This document shows, one piece after another, positions 10,339 to 34,923 of a stretch of 36,873 bases of DNA. The notes beneath the pieces are model-generated. The model saw only the letters and a list, made by a program, of their open reading frames with translations. It was not told where the DNA came from and made no database searches. A program made the position numbers and the translations under genes. This DNA is from Pseudomonadota bacterium (GTDB taxonomy: Bacteria; Pseudomonadota; Gammaproteobacteria; Burkholderiales; Thiobacillaceae). Numbering within the stretch: the first letter of the stretch is position 1; the number at the start of each line of letters is the position of its first letter. The stretch is from the NCBI GenBank assembly GCA_030690985.1, contig JAUYFG010000207.1:1-36873 (forward strand), given 5' to 3'.

Positions 10339-10359
10339 TGCCGAGGCTTCCACCCGCGC

Positions 10360-13896: not shown

Positions 13897-13930
13897 CGCA
13901 AAAATCCGAAATCCGAAATCGCAAATCCAA

Positions 13931-19907: not shown

Positions 19908-21830
19908 ATGTATCTGCTTTACGAAGAAGACGGCGACATCAAGGCCGGAACCCTCCTGGCCGACAACGACAGTTCACTCCAGATCGAATCCCAGCATGGC
20001 AAACGCGGCAAGCTGAAAGCCAACCACGTTTTGCTGCGCTTCGGCTCGCCACTGCCGGCGGAAGTCATGGAAAGTGCCCGCGCGCTCAAGGAGGATCTGG
20101 ACCTGGACTTCCTCTGGGAAGTCGCGGGCGGCGAGGAATTCGGCTTCGAGACGCTGGCGGCCGACTATTTCGGCCATGCCGCCACGCCGACTGAAGCCAG
20201 CGCCATCGTCCTGGCCCTGCATAACGCGCCGATCTACTTCCAGAAAAAGGGCAAGGGCCGTTACAAGGCCGCCGCCGCCGATATTCTGGCCGCCGCCAAA
20301 GCCGGCCTGGAGCGGCGCGCGCGCGAGACGGCGTTGCGCGCCGAGTGGGTGTCCATGCTGGTCGCCGGCAAACTGCCGGAACCCTTCCACGGCCATGTCT
20401 TCGAGCTGGCACACAAACCGGACAAGAACGGCCTGGAGTACAAGGCGCTGAACGAGGCCTGTGCCGCGACCAATCTTTCCCCGGTGCGCCTGCTGGACAA
20501 GTGCGGGGCGATTCCCTCCAGCCACGACTTCCACCGCCAGGCATTTCGTCTTGAGCAATTCCCCAAGGGCTTCGGCTTTCCCGAACTGGCCGCCCCCCTG
20601 CCGCCGCCCACCCTGCCGGCAGGCGACACGCCCGCGTTCAGCATCGACGACGCCGCCACCACCGAGATCGACGATGCCTTCTCGGTGATTTTCCGGCCCG
20701 ATGGCGGCGCCCGCGTCGGCATCCACATCGCCGCGCCCGCGCTCGGCATCCTGCCCGGCTCCGACCTGGACCGGCTGGCGGCGAGCCGGCTGTCCACGGT
20801 CTATTCCCCGGCGGAAAAATTCACCATGCTGCCGGAGGGCCTGATCGCCCAGTACACCCTGGCGGAAAACAGCGAATGCCCGGCGCTCTCCCTGTATCTG
20901 GAGGTCGGTCCCGACTACACCATCGAGACCGTCGCCACCGTGGCGGATCGCATCAGCATTGCCGCCAACCTGCGCCACGAGACCCTGGAACCGTTGTTCA
21001 ACGAGAACAGCATCGGCCAGCCCGGCCCCGATTACCCGTTCCGCCGCGAACTGGAATGGCTGTTCGCCTTTGCCCGCAGCCTGGAAATCGGGCGCGGCAA
21101 GGCCGAGCAGGTGCAGCGCCATGATTTCGTGTTTCGGGTTACAAGTGCCCCTGGCTCGGAAAAACCATCCGAGCCGCCCCCCGAGGGGGCCAAGTCGTTC
21201 TTGGGGCGGCCCGGCGAACGACTTGAGGACGAACAGGTGGAAATCAAACCGCGTCCGCGCGGCAATCCCATCGACAAGCTGGTCTCGGAACTGATGATCC
21301 TGGCCAACAACCGCTGGGGCGAATTCCTGGCCGAGAAGAACGTGGCCGGCATCTACCGCGCGCAGACCGGGGGCAAGGTCCGCATGACCCTGAGTCCGGC
21401 ACCGCACGAAGGCCTTGGGGTGTCCTGCTACACCTGGAGCACCTCGCCGTTGCGGCGTTATGTCGACCTGGTCAACCAGCGCCAGATCCTCGCCGCCGCC
21501 GCCGGTGAAATCCCGCCGCACACCGCCTCCGACCCGCTGCTGTTCGCCGCCGTGCGCGATTTCGAACTGGCCTACGACGTCTACAACGATTACCAGCGCC
21601 GCATGGAACGCTACTGGTGCCTGCGCTGGATACAGCAGGAAGCGGTTACGGAACTCGACGCCACCGCCTGGCGCGAGAATCTGGTGCGCCTCGATGGCCT
21701 TCCCTTCGTCGCCCGCATTACCGGCGCGCCCACCCTGAACCCGGGGGAGCGCATCCGCGTGGGGTTGTCCGACATCGACCTGCTCGACATCGACCTGACC
21801 TGTCGCTACCTCGCGCACCTGGACACCTGA
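19908..21830 (+). CDS. RNase II family (RNB domain) exoribonuclease-like protein
   Basis: The 640-residue protein has a short N-terminal OB-like segment, then an RNB catalytic domain with the acidic motif SIDDAATTEIDDAF (Asp/Glu at residues 247 onward) and ELMILANNRWGEFLAE, TSPLRRYVDLVNQRQIL toward its end, and a C-terminal S1-like strand region (FVARITGAPTL, then GERIRVGLSDIDL). It would degrade RNA 3' to 5' in the cytoplasm. Most unusual is an insertion at about residues 414-440, between HDFVFRV and QVEIKPRPRGNP. Its DNA (21153-21225) consists of three abutting perfect hairpins, so a palindromic element appears to have entered in frame. The gene is shorter than RNase R, closer to RNase II. 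Confidence 0.88.
   Translation: MYLLYEEDGDIKAGTLLADNDSSLQIESQHGKRGKLKANHVLLRFGSPLPAEVMESARALKEDLDLDFLWEVAGGEEFGFETLAADYFGHAATPTEASAIVLALHNAPIYFQKKGKGRYKAAAADILAAAKAGLERRARETALRAEWVSMLVAGKLPEPFHGHVFELAHKPDKNGLEYKALNEACAATNLSPVRLLDKCGAIPSSHDFHRQAFRLEQFPKGFGFPELAAPLPPPTLPAGDTPAFSIDDAATTEIDDAFSVIFRPDGGARVGIHIAAPALGILPGSDLDRLAASRLSTVYSPAEKFTMLPEGLIAQYTLAENSECPALSLYLEVGPDYTIETVATVADRISIAANLRHETLEPLFNENSIGQPGPDYPFRRELEWLFAFARSLEIGRGKAEQVQRHDFVFRVTSAPGSEKPSEPPPEGAKSFLGRPGERLEDEQVEIKPRPRGNPIDKLVSELMILANNRWGEFLAEKNVAGIYRAQTGGKVRMTLSPAPHEGLGVSCYTWSTSPLRRYVDLVNQRQILAAAAGEIPPHTASDPLLFAAVRDFELAYDVYNDYQRRMERYWCLRWIQQEAVTELDATAWRENLVRLDGLPFVARITGAPTLNPGERIRVGLSDIDLLDIDLTCRYLAHLDT
21153..21225. repeat. In-frame palindromic insertion in the RNase gene
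   Basis: Three hairpins abut: GGCTCGGA/TCCGAGCC (21153-21175), GCCCCCCGAGGGGGC (21176-21190), and CAAGTCGTTC/GAACGACTTG (21191-21225), each with perfect arms. They code in frame for a Ser/Pro/Gly/Glu-rich stretch that interrupts an otherwise conserved RNB segment. Confidence 0.75.
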
Positions 21831-21843
21831 GCGAACGCGTGGA

Positions 21844-22779
21844 ATGTCGCACCCGAACCCGCCCAGGCACCTGAGCGAATTCCTTGAGCCGCTCCCGTAT
21901 GCGCCGCTGACCTCGGCGGACTGGGACGACCGCTTCACCAAGGCGATCCTGATTTCGGCCATCGTCCATGTCCTGTTCATCTTCGGCATGCAGTTCAAGG
22001 CGGCCAACCCCAAGCTGTTCGAGAACCCGAACCCGCCTCTGGACGTGGTGCTGGTCAACGCCAAGACCAAAGACAAGCCGCTGAAAGCGGATGTGCTGGC
22101 GCAGGCCAATCTGGACGGCGGCGGCAATGTTGACGAGGACCGCCAGGCGAAAACGCCCTTGCCCGCTTCCGACCGGGAACAGGCAATGAGCGCCGAGGCC
22201 GAGTTCAACGCCCGGGTGAAGGCGCTGGAAGCCCAGACGCAGGCACTGATGACCCAGATCAAGTCCGACCACAAAGTGCCGGAGCAGAAGCCGGTGCCGC
22301 CCGCCGAACAACGCCCGGCCGCAGCCAACCCGGCGCCGCTCGATCTGGCCGCGCGCAGCCTGGAAATGGCGCGCCTGCAGGCGCGCATCGACACCCAGAT
22401 GGACGAGTACCAGAAGCGCCCGCGCCGCAAGTTCCCGGGTGCTCGCTCCCAGGAACATGGCTTCGCACAGTACATGGACGACTGGCGCATCAAGGTGGAA
22501 CGGGTGGGTAACCTGAACTACCCGGAAGCCGCGCGGCGCAATCGCCTGTACGGCTCGCTCATCCTGATGGCTTGTATCAAGGACGACGGCAGCCTGGAGT
22601 CAGTCACGGTAGATCGTTCCTCGGGGCAAAAGATACTAGACGCAGCGGCAGTGAAGATCGTCGAGATGGCCGCACCCTATACGCCCTTCTCGGAGTCGAT
22701 GCGGAAGACGGCAGACATCTTCTGTTTCCCTCGCACCTGGAGCTTCACCCGCTCGGACCAAGTCACTAGCAGCCAATGA
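21844..22779 (+). CDS. Energy transducer TonB-like protein
   Basis: The 311-residue protein has a cytoplasmic N-terminus, one transmembrane helix (about residues 34-50: AILISAIVHVLFIFGM), a long Pro/Ala/Glu/Lys-rich periplasmic region (about 60-190), and a C-terminal TonB fold (about 210-300) marked by YPEAARRNRLYGSLILMACI, then DGSLESVTVDRSSGQKILDAAA. It would pass energy from the ExbB/ExbD complex to outer-membrane receptors. It starts 13 bases after the RNase stop and may be in one operon with it. The proline stretch is shorter than in classic TonB, and an ExbBD pair is not in the window. Confidence 0.85.
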   Translation: MSHPNPPRHLSEFLEPLPYAPLTSADWDDRFTKAILISAIVHVLFIFGMQFKAANPKLFENPNPPLDVVLVNAKTKDKPLKADVLAQANLDGGGNVDEDRQAKTPLPASDREQAMSAEAEFNARVKALEAQTQALMTQIKSDHKVPEQKPVPPAEQRPAAANPAPLDLAARSLEMARLQARIDTQMDEYQKRPRRKFPGARSQEHGFAQYMDDWRIKVERVGNLNYPEAARRNRLYGSLILMACIKDDGSLESVTVDRSSGQKILDAAAVKIVEMAAPYTPFSESMRKTADIFCFPRTWSFTRSDQVTSSQ

Positions 22780-22781
22780 AC

Positions 22782-22852
22782 TGTAGCGCTGGCGTCCCGC
22801 CGGCTCGTGGGGCTAATTAGCCGAACGAGCCGGCAAGGATGCCGGCGCTACA
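22782..22852. repeat. Family B-like palindrome, compound form
   Basis: The outer arms TGTAGCGCTGGCGTCC and GGATGCCGGCGCTACA enclose a second hairpin, CCGGCTCG with CGAGCCGG around GGCTAATTAGCC. It sits between tonB-like and fbp, just upstream of the fbp ribosome-binding site. Confidence 0.8.
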
Positions 22853-22887
22853 ATTGGCGACCCCAATACCAGCCACAGGAGCAGCCC

Positions 22888-23892
22888 ATGCACACCGGAA
22901 CCACGCTTACCCAGTTCATCATCGAAGAACAACGCCATATCGCCGGCGCCACCGGCGAGTTCACCGCCCTGCTGAACGACATCGTCACCGCCATCAAAAC
23001 CATTTCCAACGCGGTGAACAAGGGCGCCCTGATCGGCGTGATGGGCGCGCTGGAAAGCGAGAATGTGCAGGGCGAAACCCAGAAGAAGCTGGACGTCATC
23101 ACCAACGAAATGATGATCCGCAGCAACGAATGGGCCGGCCACCTGGCCGGTATGGCCTCCGAGGAAATGGACGATGTCTACCCCATTCCCACCCAATACC
23201 CACTCGGCAAATACCTGATGGTGTTCGACCCGCTCGACGGCTCTTCCAACGTCGACATCAATATTTCGGTGGGCACCATCTTCTCCATCCTGCGCGCGCC
23301 GGTGCCCAATCGCGCCGCCGTCGCAGCCGATTTCCTGCAACCCGGCGTCAAGCAGGTGTGCGCCGGCTATGCCCTGTACGGCTCCTCCACCATGCTGGTG
23401 CTGACCACCGGCCACGGTGTCAACGGCTTCACCCTGGATCGCGACATCGGTGAGTTCGTCCTGACCCACCCGGGCATGAAGATTCCCGCCGACACCAGGG
23501 AATTCGCCATCAACGCCTCCAATCAGCGTTTCTGGGAAGCGCCGGTGCAGCGCTATGTGTCGGAATGCCTGGAAGGCGAAACCGGCCCGCGCGGCAAGGA
23601 CTTCAACATGCGCTGGGTGGCCTCGATGGTCGCCGAAGTACACCGCATCCTCACCCGTGGCGGCGTCTTCATGTATCCGCGCGATGCCAAAGACCCGGCC
23701 AAGCCCGGCAAGCTGCGCCTGCTCTACGAAGCCAACCCGATGAGCTTCATCGTGGAACAGGCCGGCGGCGTCTCTTCCACAGGCCGCGAACGCATCCTCG
23801 ACCTGCAACCGGAAAATCTGCACCAGCGGGTGCCGGTGATTCTGGGATCGAAGAACGAGGTGGAGGTGGTGGTGGGCTACCACCGGGTCTGA
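22888..23892 (+). CDS. fbp: Fructose-1,6-bisphosphatase class I
   Basis: The enzyme hydrolyses fructose 1,6-bisphosphate to fructose 6-phosphate in gluconeogenesis or the Calvin cycle. The 334-residue length fits the class I family. The metal/substrate motif [17 protein letters not shown] is at 114-130, [20 protein letters not shown] near 259-278 and [19 protein letters not shown] near 285-303, all matching class I signatures. CAGGAG before ATG 22888 sets the start; the upstream in-frame ATG at 22807 lies inside the palindrome. Other Calvin-cycle genes are not seen nearby, so a gluconeogenic role is the default reading. Confidence 0.96.
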
Positions 23893-23904
23893 AGGTTCGG
23901 AAAA

Positions 23905-23932
23905 TGAAAAACGCCCCGTTCGGGGCGTTTTT
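23905..23932. terminator. Bidirectional intrinsic terminator
   Basis: GAAAAACGCCCC-GTTC-GGGGCGTTTTTC is a perfect stem with an A run before and a T run after. It ends fbp on the plus strand and the exported-protein gene on the minus strand. Confidence 0.93.
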
Positions 23933-23951
23933 CATGCCTGGGGCGGCAGGC

Positions 23952-24668
23952 TCAGGGGTGCAGGCTCGCGAAATAGTCCCTGACCTGGGTGGCATTCCAG
24001 TTGACCCCGGGGGCGACGTTGTAGGTGCCGCCGAACACGATCACGGCATTGAACATGGCCACGACCTGAGCGAGGCTGAGCGGAAAATTCGGGGCGAAGG
24101 CGATGGCGTTGAAGCAGGCGGTCAATGTCTCCCGACCGAGAGACAGCGCCAGAACCTCGTCGGTCAAAAAGCCGCCGCCAACCTTCACCCGCAGTATCCA
24201 GCCCGGATTGCATTCCGTAAGCACCTGCAACTTCGTCACACAGCCCACCAGGACATCTCGTACTGTCGCTTTTGTCACGGCATTTGGCGGTGCCGGGTTC
24301 ACCTTCTCGAAGGCGTTTTTGAATTTCGCGGCCAGGGCGAAGCTGCGCGGCGCATCCGGGAAGTCGACCGAAAACTTCCTGAATTGGGTAGTCCAGTCGT
24401 TGAAACCGACGGTGCTGGGCCAGGTGGTGGGGGCAAGCGCGGCGTAGTAAGCGGGGGTCTGGCCCAGCGTGGAGCAAACCCCCTGCTCATGCGTCGAAAG
24501 ATTGCCGGAAATCTGACCGGAAATAGTGCAGTTATGCGGCGCCGCCCCCAGCACAGGTTTGCTGAGCAGGGTGGCAAGCACCACCGGCGCGGCCAGGCCG
24601 CCCTGGGTCAATCTTCTTCTGAGTGCGTCAGGCTGGTCAGTCTTAGGCTTGGATGTCGGATCGGACAT
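23952..24668 (-). CDS. Exported protein, candidate substrate of the adjacent HprK/PqqD-like system, paralogue B
   Basis: This 238-residue protein has a twin-arginine-like signal: RRRL at 17-20 followed by a hydrophobic stretch and KPVLGAAP at 37-44. Directly after is CTISGQISGNLSTH (47-60), which is almost the same in its neighbour. The centre is divergent, with four further cysteines. The C-terminus resembles its paralogue: LGRETLTACFNA, PLSLAQVVAMFNAV, then WNATQVRDYFASL. No domain is recognised and there is no PEP-CTERM tail. A sigma-54 promoter and an upstream activator site resembling those of the PEP-CTERM genes precede it. Being next to the kinase/PqqD-like operon suggests it may be modified by it; this is inference. 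Confidence 0.75.
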   Translation of the reverse strand: MSDPTSKPKTDQPDALRRRLTQGGLAAPVVLATLLSKPVLGAAPHNCTISGQISGNLSTHEQGVCSTLGQTPAYYAALAPTTWPSTVGFNDWTTQFRKFSVDFPDAPRSFALAAKFKNAFEKVNPAPPNAVTKATVRDVLVGCVTKLQVLTECNPGWILRVKVGGGFLTDEVLALSLGRETLTACFNAIAFAPNFPLSLAQVVAMFNAVIVFGGTYNVAPGVNWNATQVRDYFASLHP

Positions 24669-24706
24669 GATGCGTGGTACCCCATGGAATCGTTGTGCTC
24701 ATTCTA

Positions 24707-24722
24707 TGCAACAATCATGCCC
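24707..24722 (-). promoter_or_regulatory. Sigma-54 promoter for exported paralogue B
   Basis: The minus strand reads GGGCATGATTGTTGCA. GG and GC are correctly spaced; the first T and the C of the -24 box differ from consensus, so this is the weakest match of the five along with 4449-4464. Confidence 0.6.
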
Positions 24723-24773
24723 GCACGTATCCAATTGATTATTAACGATGTCTGGCTCGACAAACGGTTGATA

Positions 24774-24790
24774 TGTAAGAAATATCGACA
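24774..24790 (-). promoter_or_regulatory. Putative activator site for exported paralogue B
   Basis: The minus strand reads TGTCGATATTTCTTACA, identical to the two PEP-CTERM sites. It lies 51 bases upstream of the -24 box, about one helical turn nearer than in the tandem PEP-CTERM genes. It overlaps the intergenic region just after paralogue A. Confidence 0.72.
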
Positions 24791-24797
24791 GAGCCGG

Positions 24798-25442
24798 TCA
24801 GCCATAGAGTGACTCGAAGTAATTCTTCACCGACTCCGCATTCCAGAAGACGCCGGGCTTCACCTCATAAACGCCACCTTGATAGACGCTGTTGAACATC
24901 ACGATGACTTCCTGAGGCCGCAGCGGGTAATCGGTGCCGAAGCGGAGGGCGTTGAACAGAGATGCGACGGTGGCCCGCCCCAGTGCAGGATAGGGCGGAT
25001 CGCTCGTGCCGCCGTTGAGATTGAGCACCTGCAGCAGGCTCATGGGCGTGCCATTGTAGAAATCCGTGCCGGCGGGATGGGCCAGGAGCCCCCCCTTGCA
25101 GCGGTAGGCGTCCGCCAGCGTCTGGCCGTTGCAGGTGGTCAGGCGGAACAGGGTGCCGGGCGAGGCGGGCGTGCAGGAGCCTTTGCTTGGCAGTTTGCCG
25201 GCGACATATCCCGATGGCCAGGACGCGGGATGGTTTTTCCAGTAGCCGGGGGAGAGCCCCAGCGCCGTGCAAGGGGGTTCGTTCCCATGGCTGGAAGTGT
25301 TTCCGGACAGTTGGCCGGAGATCGTGCACCTATAGGGAGCGGCACCCAGTACCGGTTTCGCCAGCAGCGAGGAGAGCACCACCAAGCCGCCGGCAGCCAG
25401 GCGTCGGCGGCTCAGATCGGGTGTGTTGTGCTTGGTTTGCAT
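24798..25442 (-). CDS. Exported protein, candidate substrate of the adjacent HprK/PqqD-like system, paralogue A
   Basis: This 214-residue protein has a twin-arginine-like signal: SRRRLAAGG at 11-19, then a hydrophobic stretch and KPVLGAAP at 29-36. CTISGQLSGNTSSH (39-52) follows, shared with paralogue B. SPGYWKNHPASWP at 64-76 contains a G-Y-W-K-N-H motif that I recall from several secreted bacterial proteins. The C-terminus LGRATVASLFNALRFG, PLRPQEVIVMFNSV, WNAESVKNYFESL aligns with paralogue B. The start at 25442 is used because the in-frame ATG at 25481 would lie inside the sigma-54 promoter. Function unknown; co-location with the HprK-like operon and shared regulation with PEP-CTERM genes are the main clues. 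Confidence 0.78.
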   Translation of the reverse strand: MQTKHNTPDLSRRRLAAGGLVVLSSLLAKPVLGAAPYRCTISGQLSGNTSSHGNEPPCTALGLSPGYWKNHPASWPSGYVAGKLPSKGSCTPASPGTLFRLTTCNGQTLADAYRCKGGLLAHPAGTDFYNGTPMSLLQVLNLNGGTSDPPYPALGRATVASLFNALRFGTDYPLRPQEVIVMFNSVYQGGVYEVKPGVFWNAESVKNYFESLYG

Positions 25443-25476
25443 GGCAAGGCTCAAAAAAGAACTTCGCCATCTCTGT

Positions 25477-25492
25477 TGCAATTAACGCGCCA
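25477..25492 (-). promoter_or_regulatory. Sigma-54 promoter for exported paralogue A
   Basis: The minus strand TGGCGCGTTAATTGCA matches TGGC[AG]CG-N4-TTGC[AT] exactly. The start site would fall near 25466, about 24 bases before the ATG. Confidence 0.82.
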
Positions 25493-25572
25493 CGAAAAAC
25501 CAACAAATAATCATAAGGTTGCAAAATCCAACAAAAACGAATCGGCCGCATGTCGCGCCAATTTCCACAACA

Positions 25573-25589
25573 TCGTAGAAATCTCGACT
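25573..25589 (-). promoter_or_regulatory. Degenerate activator site for exported paralogue A
   Basis: The minus strand reads AGTCGAGATTTCTACGA, matching TGTCGATATTTCTTACA at 12 of 17 positions, with the core GTCGA.ATTTCT intact. It lies 80 bases from the promoter and overlaps the stop codon of the nucleotidyltransferase-like gene. Confidence 0.45.
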
Positions 25590-26655
25590 ATGGCTCGTCT
25601 GTATTGAAGGCCTTGCGCAGCAGGTGGGGAATCAGCAGATGCACCGGCATACGTAGCCAGTGGCTGCGTACGTAGAGTACGAAGGCGGCCGGGCCGGAGA
25701 GCGGTGTTCTGCATTCCGCATGGGCACTCGCGAAGGCGGGCAGGAACAAGGCATCGAGCAGGGCGGCGGCGAAGCGGCCCGGCCGTTCCGGGCACGCCGC
25801 CTCCAGGTGTTCCGGCATGGGCGTGTGCAACAGACGACGCGCATAACGCAGCGCGTAATAGAGCGGCCGCCCGAGATTGAGGGTTTCCGCGCGTGCGAAC
25901 AGATGTGGCCAGAACGCGGCATCGCCGCCGTATGCGCGCAACAGGGCATCAAGATCGACCAGGTCGCGCAGGCCATGTTGCCACTCGCCCTCGTGGAACA
26001 AATGGGTGGCGGAATGCAATACCTGATCGGCCGGTTCCGGAATGGAGAAGCGGGGAAAGCCCGGCAGCGGAAGTGATGCCGCGAGGAACAGGGCTGGCCG
26101 GGTCTTGCGTCGAGCGGTTTCCGGCAGGATGTTGTGATGCACATCGAGCCAGGTCTGGCGGCGGATGTGCTGCATCGGCGGCAATTCGTGCATCCATTCA
26201 CGGTAGTAACGCAGGTCGTAGGCGTCATGCGGACTGGTGATCCAGCCATCGAGCATCAGTGCGGATTCGGTTTCACTCAGTTGCGCGCGCGGCACCAGCA
26301 AGTCGATGTCGGTGAAGATGCGCCCCGCCGCCGGCGGCAGATCCGCCGCCGCGTAGGCGGCACCCTTGAGCAGCAGCACGGGGCCTGCGGTGTTTTCCAA
26401 CGATCGCCCCAGATGCCGCAATTCACAATGGACGGCGCGGCGTTGCTGTTCCGCCAGCGTCAACGCGGCTTCCAGGTGCCGCCATACTGCCGCCGGCAGG
26501 CGCTCGGAAAACCCCGAAGCCAGCGCGCCCAGTCGTCCGAGCAGGCCGGCGGCGCGCGCCTGGCGCACGACACGATCCCAGGTTTCAGCAGCGAACCCGG
26601 CCATGACAGCGGGTTCGCGCAGGGCATGCAGGAAATCGTCGCAAATTGGCTTCAC
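25588..26655 (-). CDS. Nucleotidyltransferase family protein of the HprK-like system
   Basis: The 355-residue protein has a nucleotidyltransferase-like core: LLLKGAAYAAADLPPAAGRI near 95-115 followed by FTDIDLLVPR with a D-x-D metal site, and DVHHNILPE further on. This is the pattern of the uncharacterised NTP_transf_5 (PF14907, from memory) family, which is often found near surface or secretion genes. Near 210-235, DQVLHSATHLFHEGEWQHGLR resembles the second conserved block. The start is a GTG at 26655 that overlaps the stop of the HprK-like gene (GTGA), so it is translated from the same message. It may transfer a nucleotidyl group to a protein, sugar or small molecule; the substrate is unknown. 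Confidence 0.82.
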   Translation of the reverse strand: MKPICDDFLHALREPAVMAGFAAETWDRVVRQARAAGLLGRLGALASGFSERLPAAVWRHLEAALTLAEQQRRAVHCELRHLGRSLENTAGPVLLLKGAAYAAADLPPAAGRIFTDIDLLVPRAQLSETESALMLDGWITSPHDAYDLRYYREWMHELPPMQHIRRQTWLDVHHNILPETARRKTRPALFLAASLPLPGFPRFSIPEPADQVLHSATHLFHEGEWQHGLRDLVDLDALLRAYGGDAAFWPHLFARAETLNLGRPLYYALRYARRLLHTPMPEHLEAACPERPGRFAAALLDALFLPAFASAHAECRTPLSGPAAFVLYVRSHWLRMPVHLLIPHLLRKAFNTDEP

Positions 26656-27557
26656 GCGGCCAATCTCTCGAATGCCGCCAGGGCCTCGTCCAGGCGCGAA
26701 TATTCGAAGTCCCAGCATTCGCAGGCGTCGATCAGGGCGGCGTTGAGTTCGAATCCAAGGCGCCCGAGCAGGCTGTAGTTGAAGCCATGCGTGGCGGCAT
26801 GGATGAAGGCATCCGCTTTCGAGTGCGGACTGAGTTTGACTGCGGCGTCGGCGCGCCAGCGCGGGAACACGATGTGGGCGGCGCGCGCTTTTTCGTCCAT
26901 GCGCTGCACGCTCGCGCGCGGCGGCTTCAGGTGCGCCACCGTGCCCTTGTGGGTATCCAGTGCGATGTCGCCGATCACGGCTTCCGGGAATGCCGCGCGG
27001 ATGATCTCGATCGACTGGTTCTTCAGGCTGACCGGGCGCGCCAGCGGGACGATCAGGCCATCGTCCCGATCGATCAGGGTGAGTTCATCCGAGAGCAGGC
27101 GCCAGCCGGAGAGGATGAGCGCGGCGGTCAGCGTGCTTTTGCCGGCGCCTGGATCACCCGGCAGGATCACCGCGCGACCGTTTCGCTCCAGCACGGCGGC
27201 ATGCAACATTAGGTAATGCTGGGCATGGCTGGCGATGCACCAGTTCATACCCCATTCCAGCAGTGGGAAAGCATGATTGGCGGGCAAGGGCTTGAATGGC
27301 GCCTGGTGATCGAGCCGGAAATTGCATTGCGGCCGATACCAGCGGCGCGCCCCGGTCACCTTGTCGACCTGGATATGGAAATCGCGGAACCCGCCGTCGC
27401 GCAAGGGGAAGTCGGCATAGAGCAGGGCCAGTCCCCTCGCCACCTCCGGGCTATGGCTGCGGATCAGGAAACGAAACGGCCCGGTGCGCAGATCCAGCCC
27501 ACCCGCCAGATGCCGGCGTAGTTCAGCCGGGGAAAGGTCGCCAAGGTTCACCGCCAT
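26652..27557 (-). CDS. HprK-related kinase A (HPr kinase-like protein)
   Basis: The 301-residue protein has the HPr-kinase C-terminal fold: LHAAVLERNGRAVILPGD near 118-135, P-loop GDPGAGKST at 134-142, then LSDELTLIDRDD near 156-167. HprK phosphorylates a serine of HPr in other bacteria, but in this family (the NCBI-named HprK-rel-A, next to a PqqD-like gene) the target is not known to me. The N-terminal 110 residues, including YRPQCNFRLDHQAPFKPLP, are family-specific. It starts 10 bases inside the end of the PqqD-like gene and ends overlapping the nucleotidyltransferase, so the three are a tight operon with hslV. Confidence 0.87.
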   Translation of the reverse strand: MAVNLGDLSPAELRRHLAGGLDLRTGPFRFLIRSHSPEVARGLALLYADFPLRDGGFRDFHIQVDKVTGARRWYRPQCNFRLDHQAPFKPLPANHAFPLLEWGMNWCIASHAQHYLMLHAAVLERNGRAVILPGDPGAGKSTLTAALILSGWRLLSDELTLIDRDDGLIVPLARPVSLKNQSIEIIRAAFPEAVIGDIALDTHKGTVAHLKPPRASVQRMDEKARAAHIVFPRWRADAAVKLSPHSKADAFIHAATHGFNYSLLGRLGFELNAALIDACECWDFEYSRLDEALAAFERLAA

Positions 27558-27811
27558 GCCACGAAGTCGATTTTCGCCAGCGCGGAAAGAATGACATCCA
27601 GGTCTTCTTCATGCAGATCGCAGACGTTCGCCAGTGCGGTTTGCTCCCTCTCGCCGTGCTCAAGCAGTTGCAGCAACACCAGGCCGGCGGCTTCAGAAAG
27701 GCGATGGGTGTCGTTGGCAAGCGCGTGGTGGAACACATATTCGCCCTCCCAGTGACGCCAGATGAGGCAGGCCTGATCGGCGATGCGCCAGAGACGAAGC
27801 GGCGCGCCCAT
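27548..27811 (-). CDS. PqqD-like peptide chaperone of the HprK-related system
   Basis: The 87-residue protein resembles PqqD-type proteins: a strand-rich N-terminus (LRLWRIADQACLIWRHWEG), a hydrophobic LSEAAGLVLLQLLEHG near 36-52 and a helical ALANVCDLHEEDLDVILSAL near 57-77. PqqD-type proteins hold peptide precursors for modifying enzymes. This one sits between hslV and the HprK-like kinase, matching the arrangement named HPr-rel-A. Its ATG at 27811 is 8 bases after the hslV stop; an upstream in-frame ATG (27865) would overlap hslV and is less likely. The peptide it would hold is not known; the shared N-termini of the two exported paralogues are candidates. Confidence 0.78.
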   Translation of the reverse strand: MGAPLRLWRIADQACLIWRHWEGEYVFHHALANDTHRLSEAAGLVLLQLLEHGEREQTALANVCDLHEEDLDVILSALAKIDFVAWR

Positions 27812-27819
27812 GTGAGCGA

Positions 27820-28356
27820 TTACGCCAGTGTTTCGATGAGGATGTTGCGATTGGTGTAGATGCACAGGTCGGCGGCGATGCCCAGCGATTCACGCACGAT
27901 GGCTTCGGGGGCGAGGTCGGTGTGTTCCAGCAGCGCGCGTGCCGCCGACTGGGCGTAGGCGCCGCCGCTGCCGATGGCGGCGATGCCGAATTCCGGCTCC
28001 AGCACGTCGCCGGACCCGGTGATGATCAGCGAACTGCCGCGATCCGCCACCACCAGCATGGCTTCCAGACGGCGCAACATGCGGTCGGTGCGCCAGTCCT
28101 TGGCCAGTTCCACGGCGCTACGCACCAGATGGCCCTGGTGCTTTTCCAGTTTGGCTTCGAACCGCTCGAACAAGGTGAAGGCGTCGGCGGTGCCGCCGGC
28201 GAACCCGGCCAGGATGCGGTCCTGGTAGAGCTTGCGCACCTTGCGGGCGCTGGACTTGATGACGATGCTGCCGAGGGTGACCTGGCCATCGCCGCCGATG
28301 ACCACCTCCTCGCCGCGACGCACGGAAATGATGGTGGTGCCGTGAAACTGTTCCAT
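27820..28356 (-). CDS. hslV: HslV (ClpQ) ATP-dependent protease peptidase subunit
   Basis: HslV is the threonine peptidase of the HslVU protease. The 178-residue sequence is typical: MEQFHG is a short propeptide, with the catalytic Thr at residue 7 in [20 protein letters not shown], then [38 protein letters not shown] and [20 protein letters not shown]. The start at 28356 is set by the propeptide; the reading frame extends further upstream into an inverted repeat. The hslU ATPase gene, normally adjacent, is not in the window; the PqqD-like gene follows instead. HslU may be encoded elsewhere, or the peptidase may work with other partners here. Confidence 0.95.
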
Positions 28357-28377
28357 GTTTGGTGCCTGTTCCTGCTT

Positions 28378-28537
28378 AGGGTCTGTCCATGAATAACTTG
28401 GACAATTATGGGTGTGCTGGCGGGATGCGATGCAAGACGCCGGGCGCGCGCATGGCCATTCCCTGCAAGCGACCGGCAACGCCGCAGCGCGCCCGCCAGT
28501 GCAGCCAGAATGTTCGAGTTATTCATGGACAGCCCCT
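28378..28537. repeat. 160-bp inverted repeat upstream of hslV
   Basis: AGGGTCTGTCCATGAATAAC with TT on the left (28378-28399) pairs with GAGTTATTCATGGACAGCCC and CT on the right (28516-28537). Inner segments also pair (TGCTGGCGGGATGCG with CGCGCCCGCCAGTGCA). It lies between the STAS gene and hslV, and its right end overlaps the STAS stop codon. It is long enough to be a small MITE-like element. Confidence 0.75.
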
Positions 28538-29667
28538 TAGATTCGGGTGCGGCTGCGAATGGCCGCGAACTGGCCGGCACCGACGAGTTTCAGCAGCGTA
28601 TTCACCATCTCGTTGCCCTCGATGAACTGGATGCTGCGCTCACCCTGCGCCAGTTTGATCACGGTTTCCAGCAACAGGCCGACGGCGGCGAAATCGATGC
28701 GGGTAACCTGGGCGAGGTCGATATCGATCTGCCCGCGCTCCTCGGCGAAGCGCGCCAGCTCGCGCAACTGGATCTCGGAGCCGGGTCCGATGATCCCGGA
28801 TAGATTGAAAGCCTGCCCCGATCCGTCCGGCTGCTCCGTGCTCGCCGGCTCGCCACCCCGTCCGGGCAAAGCAAGGGGCGGTACATAAGAGGGCGGAGAG
28901 AGTTCGAAAGCAACCGCGTAGCCCACGGCAGCATCCTCGAAGTCCGTCTCTTTTCCCAGCAGATGCAAGGTGGACAACCACAACAGCCAGCCGGCTTCGC
29001 CAAGACGATCACCCTGCCGCGCCGCACCCAGGCGCACCGCGAAGCCGGGGCCGCCGATCAACTCCACCGGCTTTCGCATCCGGTCGAGTTGATCGAAGCA
29101 ATCGAGCATGACTTTGGCCGTTTCTTCATCCGGAGCCGGACACTTGGTGACTTCCAGGCGGGCAAACGGCGCACCCCGCGCTTCCTGCATGAAGCGTTGC
29201 AGTTTCACCCGCTCGATGTTGCCGAATTTTTCGCTGAAACTCATCAGCGGCACCGGCATCGCGGCAACTTTCAACTGGCCACGCGGCGCCCATGTCGGCG
29301 GCGAATGTTCGAACTTCACCGCGAAATCGACCGCCGCGTCTTCAAACGGCCCCGGCTGATTACTCGACTCGTAAAGGTCGAGCAACATGTACCAGGGCAT
29401 GGGGTCGCGGTTTTCCGGATGATCGAGCAGGTAATGATTGAGCAGGGCGGCGGCTTCGCCCACCTTGCCATTGGCATAGAGCACCGCCGCCTCCTCGAAT
29501 TCCGGCACCAGGCCGCCTCCCGCCTCCTCAACTTCGATGCCCCACTCCTCGGACTCGCCCGCAGCATTGGCCAGCGTATAGGAAGGCCCCGGCGCGAACT
29601 CGGGCTGCCCTTCCTTCAGAAAGGCCATCAGTTCTTCGGGTTTGTCCTTGCGAAAAAAAGAGAACAC
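28537..29667 (-). CDS. STAS domain-containing protein with an internal duplication
   Basis: The 376-residue protein has a C-terminal STAS-like domain (about 280-370: GSEIQLRELARFAEERGQID, then TRIDFAAVGLLLETVIKL, then IEGNEMVNTLLKLVG). The first 270 residues hold two similar segments, FEDAAVDFAVKFEHSPPTWA and FEDAAVGYAVAFELSPPSYV, spaced about 140 residues apart, so that region is probably a duplicated domain preceded by an HPENRDPMPWYMLLDLYESS helical stretch. STAS domains often bind partner proteins or nucleotides in signalling. The start is a GTG at 29667 without a strong ribosome-binding site. It follows yidD on the same strand; the function is unknown. Confidence 0.72.
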   Translation of the reverse strand: MFSFFRKDKPEELMAFLKEGQPEFAPGPSYTLANAAGESEEWGIEVEEAGGGLVPEFEEAAVLYANGKVGEAAALLNHYLLDHPENRDPMPWYMLLDLYESSNQPGPFEDAAVDFAVKFEHSPPTWAPRGQLKVAAMPVPLMSFSEKFGNIERVKLQRFMQEARGAPFARLEVTKCPAPDEETAKVMLDCFDQLDRMRKPVELIGGPGFAVRLGAARQGDRLGEAGWLLWLSTLHLLGKETDFEDAAVGYAVAFELSPPSYVPPLALPGRGGEPASTEQPDGSGQAFNLSGIIGPGSEIQLRELARFAEERGQIDIDLAQVTRIDFAAVGLLLETVIKLAQGERSIQFIEGNEMVNTLLKLVGAGQFAAIRSRTRI

Positions 29668-29765
29668 GGTGGAGGGTTACCAAGTGGAGCGGAGAGCCGC
29701 GATAGTAGAACCAGCCAGAGGGGGCGGCAAGCCGCGAATCTGACAGCCGCGAATCAGGCGCGCGG

Positions 29766-29984
29766 TCAGGGCACCGGGTCGTGCCCGCCGTGGTGCCAGG
29801 GGTGGCAACGCGAAACCCGCCGCATGGCCATCCAACTCCCCTTGATCGCGCCATGCCTTGCCACCGCCTCACGCGCGTAATGCGAGCAAGTGGGCGTGAA
29901 GCGGCACTGGTTGCCGATGAATGGAGAAAGCAGCAGTTGATAGCCGCGAATCAGGCCAATGAGCAGACGTTGCGCCAGATTCAT
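29766..29984 (-). CDS. yidD: Membrane protein insertion efficiency factor YidD
   Basis: The 72-residue protein has the hallmark [14 protein letters not shown] at residues 24-37 and ends [18 protein letters not shown]. YidD assists YidC-mediated insertion of inner membrane proteins. In most proteobacteria it lies between rnpA and yidC; here it is 24 bases after mobA and precedes the STAS gene, so it is out of its usual neighbourhood. Confidence 0.93.
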
Positions 29985-30008
29985 GAGCGTGCTCCGCAGT
30001 GGTTCGGA

Positions 30009-30620
30009 TCAACGTACATAACGGCACGCCAGCCGTTCCGCTGTGCGCAGATCATCGGGCGTGTTCACATTGAGGAAGGAATAGGGGTCGCCTCTGAATT
30101 TCACGGTTTCCACCGGATGCCGCTCCTGCCAGGCACGCACCTGGCGCCCGCCCTCCCGCACGAAACAATCGAGGTCCGGGAGCAAGGAACGATGCATCAA
30201 CATGACGGCATAGTGAATGCCGGTTTCATCGGCCGCCCGCACCATCGGCACCTCATTGGCGATTGCTTGCGCATGCAGATGGATGGCGAGATCCAGGGGC
30301 AGGAAGGGCGCATCGCAGGGCACCGTGAGCAGCCATTCCTGCCGCGCGGTCCGCGCCGCCGCCAGAAGGCCGGCCAGCGGCCCCAGGTTGCCGGGCAGAT
30401 GGTCGGCCACCACCGTGTAGCCCAGCGCCGCGTAGCTGCCCAGATTGCGGTTGGCATTCAGCAATACCTCGGCCACAGTGCCCTGCAACCGCTCCGCCAC
30501 CCAGGCCGCCAGAGGCCGGCGGGCAAGCTCGATCAGCCCCTTGTCCTCGCCCTTGAAACGGCGCGCCAGCCCCCCCGCGAGGATGACGGCGGTAACGGGC
30601 ACGGTAGTCGTTTGCTTCAT
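30009..30620 (-). CDS. mobA: Molybdenum cofactor guanylyltransferase
   Basis: MobA joins GMP to molybdopterin to give the bis-MGD cofactor. The 203-residue protein has the nucleotide-binding loop LAGGLARRFKGEDKGL at 14-29, GPLAGLLAAARTARQEWLLT and VPCDAPFLP with the metal Asp, and SFLNVNTPDDLR near the end. Its ATG overlaps the stop of the glycosyltransferase gene by ATGA, so they are co-translated, an odd pairing. The Met at 30620 is used because the longer frame adds an unrelated leader. Confidence 0.93.
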   Translation of the reverse strand: MKQTTTVPVTAVILAGGLARRFKGEDKGLIELARRPLAAWVAERLQGTVAEVLLNANRNLGSYAALGYTVVADHLPGNLGPLAGLLAAARTARQEWLLTVPCDAPFLPLDLAIHLHAQAIANEVPMVRAADETGIHYAVMLMHRSLLPDLDCFVREGGRQVRAWQERHPVETVKFRGDPYSFLNVNTPDDLRTAERLACRYVR

Positions 30621-32155
30621 GGCGCCAGGTAGTAGAGGCGATAGCGAAGCCGTTTCACGCGCGGGCGAGCCCCTTCCCACACCGGCTCGCTGTTCGTGGC
30701 CACCTTGCGGCCGGCCGATACCAGCAGCCAGGGACAATCAGCGGCGCGCCGGGGGTGCAGGTGATAACGCAGCATGGTACGCATGGCCGGATCGGTTTCG
30801 ATATTCAGGCAGGAATTCGCCGGCAGTTGCCGTTTCAGGTCGGCGATCAGCGGCTGATAGCCCCAGCCGGCTTCCATCCAGGGGCGAAACAGCGCGATCA
30901 GCAAAGTCCAGACCAGCACCATTCCACTTGCCCAGACCAGCACGGGGCGAATCTTCGCGCGCGGGAACAGGGGAATGGCCAGCAACCACAGCGCGGTGGC
31001 CGTCACCGCGAGCGGCACGCCCAGCCCCGCTACCGATCCCGTCCGATAAGTGGGCGTGAGGCGCGCCACATGCGCCGCCAACCGGGTCGGCATCCCCCAT
31101 TCCAACGCGGCGAAATAGACCCAGAAGGCGAAGATGAAAAACACGAAGCAGACCACGCCAAACCAGTAGAAAGCCTGCGCCGCGCCACGCTTCATGCTGT
31201 CGACGCCATAAGCGGCCAGCAGCGCCAGTGGCGGCAACAGCGGCAGCAAACCGCCATCGCGCGACCAGGACGGCCCCAGGCTGGCAAGGGTGGCCGCCAG
31301 TAGTGCGATCAAGGGCACATGCAATTCCCGGGCACGACCGAGACGGCGATGCTCATGCCAAAGCGCGGCCAGCGCCAACGGCCAGATTGGCCAGGCCAGC
31401 CAGGGCAGTTCGGAAAATGCGCGCAAGGAAGGCGCGCCGGAAACCAGCCGCTGCCAGCCATGCCAACGCTGCCAGTCCGCGAGTTGTCCGCTGTCATGCA
31501 GATAGAGCAGGGACGCGATGCTCAACACGGTGGCCAGCCCCAGCCCCAGCGCCAAGGCACGGCGATAGGCCGAACGCCGCCAATCCGGCAACAGCAAGGG
31601 CAGCAGCAGCAACACCAGGCCGGCGGCGAGATCCGGCAAGCCGCGCAGGCCCAGAAACAGCGCGCTCAGGGACAGCCCGATCAGGACGCCGCCCAGGCGA
31701 ACCGAATCACGCCCGCACGCGACCCCGGCCAACAGCGCGGACCAGGCCGCAAGCAACGTGGTCTCCGGGGCGAGCGCATGCATGCGCAGCATCAGGCCGA
31801 GACAGCCGATCAAGGCCAGTACCGCCGTCGGCCCGAAGCCTGGCCCGAACAGTCGGCGCGCGGCCAAAGCGGTAAACAACAGGGAAGCCAGCGTAAACAA
31901 GCCGCTCGCCAGGCGCGCGCCATCCTGCAACGGCAACCAGGGCGAACCGAGTCTCGCCGTCAGGGCCGCCGTCCAGACATGCAGGGGGGCCGGCGCCTGC
32001 CAGGCGCGGGCAAGATCGACGCTCGCCTCCAGGGTCGGCGCCAGCGCCAGCGCTTCATCCGCCTTCCAGGCATCACGACCGGCCAGGCCATAGAACGCCC
32101 AGAAAACGGCGAGCAGGAGCAGCCAGAACAGCTTGTCAGGCTGCGCAGGGTTCAT
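30617..32155 (-). CDS. ArnT-like (GT83/PMT-type) membrane glycosyltransferase
   Basis: The 512-residue polytopic protein has the ArnT/PMT topology: about a dozen hydrophobic helices, an Asp-Glu pair at D33-E34 in the first periplasmic loop (KADEALALAP), and a soluble C-terminal periplasmic part (about 410-512). Such enzymes transfer a sugar from a polyprenyl-phosphate carrier to lipid A or a protein. The acceptor cannot be read from the sequence. It shares a message with mobA downstream. The gene begins just after the rpmE terminator on the same strand. Confidence 0.78.
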   Translation of the reverse strand: MNPAQPDKLFWLLLLAVFWAFYGLAGRDAWKADEALALAPTLEASVDLARAWQAPAPLHVWTAALTARLGSPWLPLQDGARLASGLFTLASLLFTALAARRLFGPGFGPTAVLALIGCLGLMLRMHALAPETTLLAAWSALLAGVACGRDSVRLGGVLIGLSLSALFLGLRGLPDLAAGLVLLLLPLLLPDWRRSAYRRALALGLGLATVLSIASLLYLHDSGQLADWQRWHGWQRLVSGAPSLRAFSELPWLAWPIWPLALAALWHEHRRLGRARELHVPLIALLAATLASLGPSWSRDGGLLPLLPPLALLAAYGVDSMKRGAAQAFYWFGVVCFVFFIFAFWVYFAALEWGMPTRLAAHVARLTPTYRTGSVAGLGVPLAVTATALWLLAIPLFPRAKIRPVLVWASGMVLVWTLLIALFRPWMEAGWGYQPLIADLKRQLPANSCLNIETDPAMRTMLRYHLHPRRAADCPWLLVSAGRKVATNSEPVWEGARPRVKRLRYRLYYLAP

Positions 32156-32174
32156 TGACGGGGCAATGTCCGAA

Positions 32175-32200
32175 ACAAAAAAGGCAGCCTAAGCTGCCTT
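32175..32200 (-). terminator. Intrinsic terminator for rpmE
   Basis: On the minus strand AAGGCAGC-TTAG-GCTGCCTT is followed by TTTTGT. It lies 23 bases after the rpmE stop. Confidence 0.9.
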
Positions 32201-32222
32201 CGTCCAACCAGACTGCCTTCGA

Positions 32223-32429
32223 TCACTTCTTGAGACCGTACTTCTGGCGGAATTTTTCGACCCGGCCGGCGGTGTCCACAATTTTCTGCTTGCCGGTATA
32301 GAACGGGTGGCAGGCGGAACAGACTTCCACATGCAACGCCTTCTTCATGGTGGAACGGGTGTTGAAAATGTTACCGCAACTGCAAGTCACGGAAATTTCG
32401 TTGTATTCGGGATGTACGCCGGCTTTCAT
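32223..32429 (-). CDS. rpmE: Ribosomal protein L31, zinc-binding (C+) form
   Basis: The 68-residue protein starts [12 protein letters not shown] and has four zinc-ligand cysteines at 16, 18, 37 and 40 (CSCGN and [12 protein letters not shown]). It is part of the large ribosomal subunit. A consensus AGG lies upstream of ATG 32429; the frame extends farther upstream but the 68-residue size is typical. Confidence 0.97.
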
Positions 32430-32528
32430 GATGAGTACCTGGGCTGGAAACCTGGAAAGCGCGCGATTATCCACAAAAACCTGTTGTCAGGCAAATACTT
32501 GCTCAACCACGCGGCGCGAATGCCGAGA

Positions 32529-33413
32529 CTATTTCGTTTCGGCCAACAGATGCCCGAGCATCCGCTCTGCCTGGGACGCGTAGCCACCGCCGAACAGATT
32601 GAAGTGGTTGAGCACGTGATAAAGGTTGTAGAGATGTTTGCGCACGCGGTAGCCGGAATCGAGCGGCCAGGCCTCCCGATAAGCCGCATGGAACGCCTCC
32701 GGATAACCGCCGAACAACTCGGTCATGGCCAGATCCGCTTCGCGGTCGCCGTAGTAGAGCGCCGGGTCGAACAGAACCGGCGCGCCGTCGACATAACCGT
32801 GGTTGCCGCCCCAGAGGTCGCCATGCAACAGCGAGGGAATCGGGCTGTAACCGGGGAAAAACGCCTCCAGTCCATCCAGCAGTTGCTCACCCTGTTGCAA
32901 CAGGCCGCGCGGTGCATGGTTGAGCCGCGCGAGTTCAAGCTGGGTGCGCAGGCGGCGCGCGCGAAAAAACTCGACCCAGCCCGGCATCGGGGCATTGTGC
33001 TGTGGAGTGCTGCCGATGCAGTTGTCGCGCCACCAGCCAAAGCCGGTCTGGCTATGGCGATGCAACTGCGCGAGTTGCCGGCCGAGATCGGCAGGCCGCT
33101 CCCGTTCGCCAAGATTCAGCCATTCCAGAACCAGAAACGCCGCCTTGCCGCTGCGGCCGCCGGCAATCGGACGCGGCACCCGAATCGCCCCGGCGGCTTC
33201 GAGTTCACGCAAACCATCGGCCTCGGCCTCGAACATGTCGAGTTTGTCGGCATCGTTCAATTTTGCGAAGTAACGTCGGCCATCGGCACCGGTCAGGGCG
33301 AATCCACGATTGATGCACCCGCCGCCCTGCGTCGACTGGCGCTCACAAGAAAACGATCGACCGCTGGCCGCGCTGATGGCGGCCGCAAGATCGGCGAGCA
33401 GCGTGGGATTCAC
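32529..33413 (-). CDS. Fructosamine/ketosamine-3-kinase family protein
   Basis: The 294-residue protein has the aminoglycoside-kinase-like fold: GGGCINRGFAL near 30-40, FLVLEWLNLG near 93-102, catalytic HGDLWGGN at 197-204 and LFDPALYYGDREADLAM with the metal Asp just after. The family phosphorylates fructosamines or ribulosamines on glycated proteins, possibly to repair them. The start is a GTG at 33413 overlapping the stop of the DUF971 gene (GTGA), so the two are translationally coupled. Confidence 0.88.
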   Translation of the reverse strand: MNPTLLADLAAAISAASGRSFSCERQSTQGGGCINRGFALTGADGRRYFAKLNDADKLDMFEAEADGLRELEAAGAIRVPRPIAGGRSGKAAFLVLEWLNLGERERPADLGRQLAQLHRHSQTGFGWWRDNCIGSTPQHNAPMPGWVEFFRARRLRTQLELARLNHAPRGLLQQGEQLLDGLEAFFPGYSPIPSLLHGDLWGGNHGYVDGAPVLFDPALYYGDREADLAMTELFGGYPEAFHAAYREAWPLDSGYRVRKHLYNLYHVLNHFNLFGGGYASQAERMLGHLLAETK

Positions 33414-33796
33414 ACCATTGTTTTCGGCTCGCGCGAAGCGCCGGCCTGTTCCATGCGCAGCAGATAGGCCTTCCAGTACGCTTCCTGATAGCGCCCCAGG
33501 TCATACAGGTAATCCCAGGAATAGATGCCGGAATCATGGCCGTCGGAGAACGTCAGGCAGACCGCATAGTGGCCTACCGGCTCGACATTCTTGATATCGA
33601 TATTTTTCTTGCCGACCTGCAACGTCTCCTGGCCGGGGCCATGACCGCGCACCTCGGCGGAGGGGGAATAGACGCGCAGGTACTCGTAGGAAAACTCGTA
33701 GCGGTCACCGTTGTTGAAGGCCACTTCCATGAGACGCGACTGCTGATGCAACTTGATCTCGGTGGGGATAGGGGTTTCGGCGGAAAGGCCACCCAT
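33410..33796 (-). CDS. DUF971 (gamma-butyrobetaine hydroxylase-like N-terminal domain) protein
   Basis: The 128-residue protein carries the DUF971 pattern: EVAFNNGDRYEFSYEYLRVY at 24-43, SPSAEVRGHG, KNIDIKNVEPVGHYAVCLTF, DGHDSGIYSWDYLYDLG. Proteins of this kind are common in proteobacteria and the role is uncharacterised (an Fe-S or ubiquinone-related role is suggested for relatives). Its stop overlaps the kinase start. In many genomes it precedes ubiE; here it does not. Confidence 0.88.
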   Translation of the reverse strand: MGGLSAETPIPTEIKLHQQSRLMEVAFNNGDRYEFSYEYLRVYSPSAEVRGHGPGQETLQVGKKNIDIKNVEPVGHYAVCLTFSDGHDSGIYSWDYLYDLGRYQEAYWKAYLLRMEQAGASREPKTMV

Positions 33797-33988
33797 GATG
33801 CATCCTTTATATAAGTGATTGGTAATGGAGCCGTAGTGTGCCAGTCGGCATGGGGGGGCGACAAGCCCGAGTTTATTTGTCGGGTATTTGTGCCCCCAAT
33901 AAACGCGACGCGCGCCAGCCTTGACGCTGGCGGGGCGATACGGTTAAATGCGCGCCTCTTTTGGCCGGGGTTCCCCGGTTGAAGCTGC

Positions 33989-34064
33989 GGCCAGGTAGCT
34001 CAGTTGGTAGAGCAGCGGATTGAAAATCCGCGTGTCGACGGTTCGATTCCGCCCCTGGCCACCA
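33989..34064 (+). tRNA. tRNA-Phe (anticodon GAA)
   Basis: A full cloverleaf is visible: acceptor GGCCAGG pairs with CCTGGCC, the D-arm is GCTCAGTTGGTAGAGC, the anticodon stem GCGGA/TCCGC encloses TTGAAAA with GAA at 34022-34024, the T-arm is CGACGGTTCGATTCCGCC and the 3' CCA is encoded. It is followed by a terminator hairpin. Confidence 0.97.
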
Positions 34065-34073
34065 AATAAAATC

Positions 34074-34904: not shown

Positions 34905-34923
34905 TCTGCGCCGGCACCGCGTC

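Follow-up and report, generated by a model that had tools for sequence, protein, structure and literature searches.

A kinase, a PqqD-like protein and a nucleotidyltransferase-like protein encoded beside Tat-type exported proteins in Pseudomonadota: a candidate system for the modification of secreted proteins

In a 36,873-nt stretch of DNA from a Pseudomonadota bacterium of the Thiobacillaceae (assembly GCA_030690985.1, contig JAUYFG010000207.1; the whole stretch is called the window below), the genes of a PqqD-like protein, an HprK-related kinase A and a nucleotidyltransferase-like protein, together called the trio, are followed by those of two paralogous exported-type proteins, P0005 and P0006. 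Our comparison across genomes makes it almost certain that this kinase set and the exported protein are genetic partners, both at loci chosen by the kinase alone and in genomes held back for a separate search. It is also likely that they form a four-part system for the modification of secreted proteins, composed of an exported precursor carrying a twin-arginine translocation (Tat)-type leader, the PqqD-like protein as a recognition element for ribosomally synthesised and post-translationally modified peptides (RiPP recognition element, RRE), kinase A and an enzyme of the NTP_transf_5 family. That the exported protein is modified we infer from homology. The kinase and the PqqD-like protein are already known by name, as the HPr-rel-A set (TIGR04352/TIGR04353), while the exported partner class and its link to the set appear to be new; neither was found in the open-licence literature.

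Results

The gene set in the window

The six minus-strand genes, an hslV gene included, were verified at the coordinates and with the overlaps and families that the original prediction had given them. The trio and its partners are as follows.

27548-27811, minus strand: PqqD-like protein, putative RRE, 87 aa; 8-base gap to hslV; TIGR04353 as sole match, below cut-off
26652-27557, minus strand: HprK-related kinase A (TIGR04352), 301 aa; 10-base overlap with the PqqD-like gene; H119, K140 (Walker A), D157, E158
25588-26655, minus strand: nucleotidyltransferase-like protein (PF14907), 355 aa; GTG start, 4-base GTGA overlap; GR...D116-x-D118
24798-25442, minus strand: exported partner protein 1 (P0005), 214 aa; made up of a Tat-type leader, a Ser/Cys segment and a folded GYW domain
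25338-25442, minus strand: P0005 leader, residues 1-35, RRR...KPVLGAA (alignment A1); helix 11-27 in the predicted model
25269-25337, minus strand: P0005 Ser/Cys segment, residues 36-58, with C39, S42, S46, S50 and C58; candidate modification site
23952-24668, minus strand: exported partner protein 2 (P0006), 238 aa; leader and Ser/Cys segment as in P0005, with a degenerate GYW motif
24540-24668, minus strand: P0006 leader, residues 1-43, by sequence comparison
24474-24539, minus strand: P0006 Ser/Cys segment, residues 44-65, by sequence comparison

Pairing of the kinase set with an exported protein

Kinase A scores above the cut-off in 51 of the 299 genomes of a phylum sample, and 50 of these (all except G173, the window included) were covered, together with 20 further stretches that surround relatives of the exported protein and 11 for additional kinases in related genomes. 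A leader-bearing protein is adjacent to the kinase in 43 of the 50 phylum loci and in 9 of the 11 loci from relatives, that is, in 52 of 61 loci chosen by the kinase alone. Conversely, 18 of the 20 stretches chosen by the exported protein carry kinase A, the exceptions being L116, a short contig, and L120. Taking all kinase loci together, in a list that was curated by eye and in which 18 of 79 loci had been fetched because of the exported protein, a partner is present in 70 of 79, lying upstream of the trio in 50, downstream in 19 and divergently in one. The automatic leader pattern alone finds a partner in 61 of these 79 loci and in 62 of 80 loci from named genomes (among the matches listed). 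Its density is 0.168 per kb near the kinase versus 0.021 per kb away from it, an approximately 8-fold difference, and it occurs at none of 11 loci of HprK-like proteins other than kinase A. Both gene orders are found within the window's genus and family, and the pairing is therefore more than one frozen operon. A wide occurrence of the exported paralogues without the kinase/PqqD pair had been named beforehand as the result that would speak against the original prediction. It is not what we find: in 61 related genomes, a P0005 relative is present in 24 of 31 kinase-positive versus 0 of 30 kinase-negative genomes, where the association counts ignore kinship among genomes and the 24 of 31, like the 22 of 51 and the 22 families given below, was counted by reading listings. 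The neighbourhood survey that had been proposed with it likewise links the kinase/PqqD/transferase set to exported proteins whose shared N-terminal region is constant.

A scan of named genomes yielded at least 80 loci, of which 5 repeat loci of the first set and 75 are new. The carriers are relatives in the Thiobacillaceae/Hydrogenophilales, Massilia, Duganella, Herbaspirillum, Sulfuricella, Gallionella, Methylomonas, Rubrivivax, Zooshikella, one member of the Phycisphaeraceae and others. Among the matches listed, the window-type exported profile finds 74 of the 80 loci; of the 75 new loci it finds 69, in 68 of them near the kinase, several of the matches being weak at 18-28 bits. The loci without a match are L194, where a leader is found by pattern, L219 and L222, whose contigs start less than 0.4 kb ahead of the PqqD-like gene, and L227, L231 and L238. 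In the named genomes, most partner genes stop no more than about 60 bases from the start of the PqqD-like gene or overlap its longest reading. The exported profile is not wholly private to the system, since it matches in 13 of the 299 genomes and these include exceptions: G284, where the match covers a GYW-like cargo domain with no such leader, and G081, where a leader protein lies on a separate contig near a chain-length-type gene. The match in G198 is interrupted by stops and is probably due to chance. On contig C18 of G317 (L120:8579-10260), two exported paralogues stand far from the contig ends with no trio in 19.5 kb, the trio being on another contig; they are possibly unlinked extra substrates.

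Held-out search with a leader-only profile

Profile A4, built from 30 of 76 exported proteins, covers 52 residues, namely the leader together with the beginning of the Ser/Cys segment. It was searched against 321 genomes of the class, and the same genomes were searched for kinase A. Of the 33 genomes in which kinase A scores above the cut-off, 31, belonging to 22 families, had not been used before. In 29 of the 31, the kinase domain match is preceded, on its own strand and at a distance of 499-1068 bases, by a leader match. The misses are G566 and G600 (kinase 640 bases from the contig start), as well as G019, which had been examined previously. When the best match of each genome is taken and the window is excluded, 25 of 25 matches at E<=1e-7 are kinase neighbours, as are 28 of 30 at E<=1e-6. 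These figures are uncorrected for kinship among the genomes. Leader-profile matches also occur in two genomes that lack kinase A, G527 (E 4e-7) and G624 (1e-6), and G625 shows an additional match (4e-7) distant from its kinase. At a threshold of E 0.01, the profile matches in 66 of the 321 genomes, many of them kinase-negative.

The exported partner proteins

P0005 and P0006 are 43% identical (alignment A1, which holds 24 of 32 exported matches), and in the HMM libraries no family model matched either above its cut-off. Likewise, no NCBIfam model matched any of the exported partners tested (the 24 of A1 and four of other types), and the search for a solved relative gave nothing credible, its best match being a ribosomal protein at E 0.079. 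The consensus of the partners is RR(R)xLxKG, a hydrophobic stretch, a TLxS-like element and an A-x-A-like site, followed by serines and a cysteine and then by the cargo. The twin arginine is invariant in 24 of 24 (A1) and 30 of 30 (A4) rows, partly since the search itself required RR, and a script recognises an A-x-A-like site in 71 of 75 proteins; in the window P0006 passes and P0005 fails, its ...VLGAAP not being of the coded form. A loose TLxS pattern is present in all of 142 unique proteins, with a Pro element ahead of it in 89. These features suggest that the partner leader is a Tat-type signal peptide. The leader is better conserved than the cargo, with 57% versus 27% identity among the 24 proteins of A1 and 62% versus 28% among 19 proteins of the XrtA-locus type. 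Beyond the window-type lineages, the cargo changes and a like leader persists.

Behind the leader, the window-type segment reads C-x-x-S-G-x-x-S-G-N-x-S; all 24 rows of A1 have S42, S46 and C58, and at least 90% have S50. The 142 unique proteins divide into 96 with C-x(1-4)-S-xxx-S, 42 with a serine preceding the cysteine and 4 with neither; the serine positions thus vary by subfamily, and there is therefore no single acceptor site. The C-x(1-4)-S-xxx-S motif, which was defined after such proteins had been viewed, occurs in 65 of 75 named-genome proteins versus 8.7 after shuffling (among the matches listed). In a test of 70 of 76 proteins (leaving out L141, four without a cleavage call and one short protein), serine makes up 14.5% of positions +1 to +20 versus 8.1% further on. 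Of these 70 proteins, 69 have a serine no more than 12 residues from the scripted cleavage site, and 65 have a cysteine no more than 14 residues from it. The original prediction had treated KPVLGAAP..CTISGQ as one recognition segment; the constancy of this N-terminal region stands, but it is actually made of two parts, the end of the Tat-type leader as candidate recognition site and the Ser/Cys segment as candidate acceptor.

In the predicted model of P0005 (mean predicted local distance difference test score, pLDDT, 76.1), the leader forms a helix, confidence is low up to about residue 60, and a domain follows with pLDDT of about 75-92 over most of its length and one ten-residue block at 65. 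On this model the Ser/Cys segment is probably flexible. Residues resembling [ST]PGYW mark the cargo domain and are present in 46 of 75 named-genome proteins (among the matches listed), and no Pfam or NCBIfam model for the CTxGYWK-type domain was found among the exported proteins tested. One protein (L148:1444-2310, minus strand) has a signal-like N-terminus and a CTxGYWK..H..W..LLNA cargo-like domain, with no HPr-rel-A leader. Because the cargo domain also occurs in this leaderless protein, it is the leader that marks the system, and the cargo may have been acquired from elsewhere.

The PqqD-like protein, the kinase and the transferase

The only match of the window's PqqD-like protein is TIGR04353, at 17.6 bits. 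All 33 PqqD-like members of alignment A2 match this model at E<=0.01, the best at 4e-17, and their profile matches the solved lasso RREs TbiB1 (E 0.0015) and TfuB1 (E 0.0035). The AlphaFold2 model has a mean pLDDT of 93.9, and its six best PDB folds are TbiB1 (five chains) and one lasso B1 protein, all of them leader-peptide complexes. Because of these profile and fold matches, the PqqD-like protein is, by predicted fold, a lasso-type RRE. At one locus (L054:8327-9159, minus strand) precursor and PqqD-like gene stand together on the strand opposite the kinase, an arrangement in which the RRE therefore travels with the precursor.

The window kinase scores 400.7 bits against the cut-off of 200 for TIGR04352 (HprK_rel_A), keeps H119, K140, D157 and E158 as do 79 of 79 aligned homologues, and has a profile that can be aligned with solved HPr kinases (alignment A3, 25 of the 79 kinases). 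The transferase scores 175.4 bits against the cut-off of 31.2 for PF14907 (NTP_transf_5), and D116 and D118 of its D-x-D are kept in 65 of 66 aligned homologues. As judged by conservation, both enzymes have retained their likely catalytic residues. The set agrees with HPr-rel-A in having adjacent genes and a kinase above the cut-off, and its PqqD-like protein has TIGR04353 as sole match, under the cut-off; it differs in its exported partners, of which those tested match no NCBIfam model.

Genomic surroundings

Two further features flank the set in the window.

27820-28356, minus strand: hslV, 178 aa; HslV equivalog, 298.5 bits
23907-23932, no strand assigned: palindrome aaaaacgccccgaacggggcgttttt, terminator-like, between P0006 and the convergent fbp; read directly from the sequence

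The automatic scan listed no terminators, the promoter scan predicted 2 promoters versus 1.4 expected, and the gaps preceding the two exported genes measure 145 and 129 bases.

Among 154 distinct loci, which include the named-genome loci (among the matches listed), a gene of an XrtA/PEP-CTERM exopolysaccharide cluster lies within 5 kb in 53, or in 67 when the response-regulator cluster is added. These clusters comprise glycosyltransferases, an amidotransferase and export and chain-length proteins (representatives TIGR03088, TIGR03108, TIGR03027 and TIGR03007; regulator TIGR02915). Exosortase co-occurs with kinase A in 22 of 51 genomes versus 31 of 248, and the window's genome also has an exosortase gene. 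A trypsin-like serine protease (PF13365) is encoded near the trio in 28 of the 154 loci, for example L172:2380-3192, and is a possible maturation protease. Both the exopolysaccharide and the protease counts refer to similarity clusters with one representative identified each. On another contig of the window's genome (C270, locus L088), a 738-aa frame (9536-11752, minus strand) combines a PF11397 GlcNAc glycosyltransferase, PqqD (PF05402) and an HprK-like stretch found in the TIGR04352 search, and its divergent neighbour (12952-14163, plus strand) is an NTP_transf_5 gene. By its domains, this pair is a putative second such set with a built-in glycosyltransferase.

Discussion

The findings of this study are consistent with a mechanism in which the RRE would bind the leader of the exported protein, and, with the leader doubling as a Tat-type signal peptide, this binding is suggested to delay export until modification is complete. 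The kinase would phosphorylate serines right behind the leader, S42, S46 and S50 in the window, and the transferase would add a further group, a sugar or a nucleotide, onto phosphoserine. The Tat machinery would then export the folded, modified protein, and signal peptidase would cut off the leader. Serine phosphorylation of the exported protein appears fairly probable to us, whereas action of the transferase on that phosphate is a tentative suggestion, as is a surface or matrix role of the product.

Similar arrangements are known from smaller peptides. In the systems of the linear polyphosphorylated peptides (LPP) of Bacillota, published in 2026, the peptides are conserved in their N-terminal and variable in their C-terminal part and are accompanied by an RRE, an HprK-like kinase and an NTP transferase; core Ser3 is phosphorylated by LppK, and the first LPP loci lie in capsule regions (PMC13381572). 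The leader there is YxxPxVL, with a dedicated SpI-like peptidase and an MsbA-like exporter; the systems are described as confined to Bacillota (PMC13381572). Our loci share with LPP the discrete lasso-type RRE (by profile and predicted fold), the HprK-like kinase, the NTP transferase, precursors with a constant N-terminal region in front of a variable remainder and, for part of the loci, polysaccharide surroundings, but differ in their Tat-type leaders and in lying nearly all in Pseudomonadota. Inspection by eye of the 28 largest neighbour clusters, six of whose representatives were identified by models, recognised no SpI-like peptidase or MsbA-like exporter, a search by model not having been made. 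In lasso peptide systems, PadeK phosphorylates serine, PsmK together with PsmN phosphorylates and then glycosylates it, and PsmN is required for the hexoses on phosphoserine (PMC9266682). Paeninodin and pseudomycoidin thus agree with our set in an HprK-like kinase acting on serine, an NTP transferase acting on phosphoserine and a B1-type RRE. They differ in the precursor, which here is an exported-type protein of 214-238 aa with a folded domain; no macrolactam cyclase or B2 peptidase is present in the window operon, and none was seen by eye in window positions 20000-36873. An Asn-synthase-like gene at one XrtA locus scores 870.6 bits with TIGR03108 and falls below the lasso cyclase cut-off. 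A signal peptide in place of the usual leader, and in some cases a long precursor, has been described for bufferins and other MNIO-modified RiPPs, and the authors speculate that the Sec signal of such precursors is masked until modification (PMC12452194). Those systems use Sec, not Tat, and MNIO/DUF2063 enzymes, and the terms 'Tat', 'PqqD' and 'HprK' are absent from the main text of that article (PMC12452194).

Several points weigh against a modification system as proposed here. Our material consists of genes and predictions, and Tat export is predicted from the sequence motif. The TLxS element is loose, its strict form [TS]-[LIVM]-x-S being present in 97 of the 142 unique proteins, and the serines shift between subfamilies, standing after the first cysteine in 96 of the 142, before it in 42 and in neither place in 4. 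The window's PqqD-like protein scores under the NCBI cut-off of 35 for TIGR04353. No adjacent precursor is seen in 9 of the 79 loci (L056, L057, L063, L071, L077, L079, L087, L138 and L142), and a contig end upstream is not the cause for L057, L063, L071, L079 and L087; in the genomes of L057, L138 and L142 a leader protein is present on another contig. Finally, the Y/WxxP motif for RRE binding is absent: none of the 89 leaders with a Pro element has Tyr or Trp at P-3, and 53 of 142 have no Pro element. Because the YxxP leader motif was tested for and is lacking, we do not class the system as LPP; by analogy, it works like LPP but without the LPP leader motif.

Other explanations deserve consideration. 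One of them keeps the chemistry and gives it a different purpose, with the trio building a phosphate-linked sugar on serines of Tat-exported carriers that would serve as anchor or primer for exopolysaccharide, as in a proteoglycan-like surface system. The S-G-x-x-S-G behind the leader, the XrtA/exopolysaccharide genes at 53-67 of 154 loci, the PsmN hexose, the capsule loci of LPP and the glycosyltransferase-containing set at L088 all point in this direction, none of them conclusively, and we regard it as unlikely. An export gatekeeper, in which the RRE-like protein and the kinase would be a Tat chaperone or proofreading set and ATP would drive release with no stable modification, seems to us just as unlikely. 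Redox-enzyme maturation proteins provide the comparison for dedicated chaperones of this kind. Such a role would suit a constant part that is a Tat-type leader and not one acceptor serine, and a variable cargo, for which the P0005 model predicts a folded domain; it leaves unexplained, however, an NTP_transf_5 enzyme with a retained D-x-D, and the analogous trios phosphorylate and glycosylate serine. It is quite improbable that the trio and the exported protein owe their association to nothing but joint inheritance in exopolysaccharide/XrtA regions and have separate substrates. Although the XrtA/exopolysaccharide genes near 53 loci (67 with the regulator) and the co-occurrence with exosortase (22 of 51 versus 31 of 248 genomes) would agree with mere co-inheritance, the pairing holds at the remaining loci, in both gene orders and with variable cargo behind a like leader, and the leader-only profile detects the adjacent gene in 29 of the 31 genomes that had not been used before. 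The original prediction also had HslV trim or recycle the modified precursor, and hslV indeed precedes the trio by 8 bases in the window and is found close to it in 7 more genomes of the genus, but we reject it as a component and consider this role extremely improbable, because these are 8 of 92 stretches scanned, all of one genus, hslU is on another contig (C239:4652-5980), and the partners look exported whereas HslV is cytoplasmic. The hslVU pair itself looks split in this genome, since the two genes lie on separate contigs and the 4.3 kb around hslU show no hslV.

In summary, the HPr-rel-A set has been a named set for which no known substrate was found, and the held-out search ties it to a class of exported-type proteins that can be recognised by the leader. 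If the proposed modification system is true, RRE-guided phosphorylation would extend from the peptides of Bacillota to larger, Tat-exported proteins of Pseudomonadota, and an export signal would double as a modification leader. The exported partner would then also be a candidate for the protein behind the association, so far unexplained, of such systems with polysaccharide loci.

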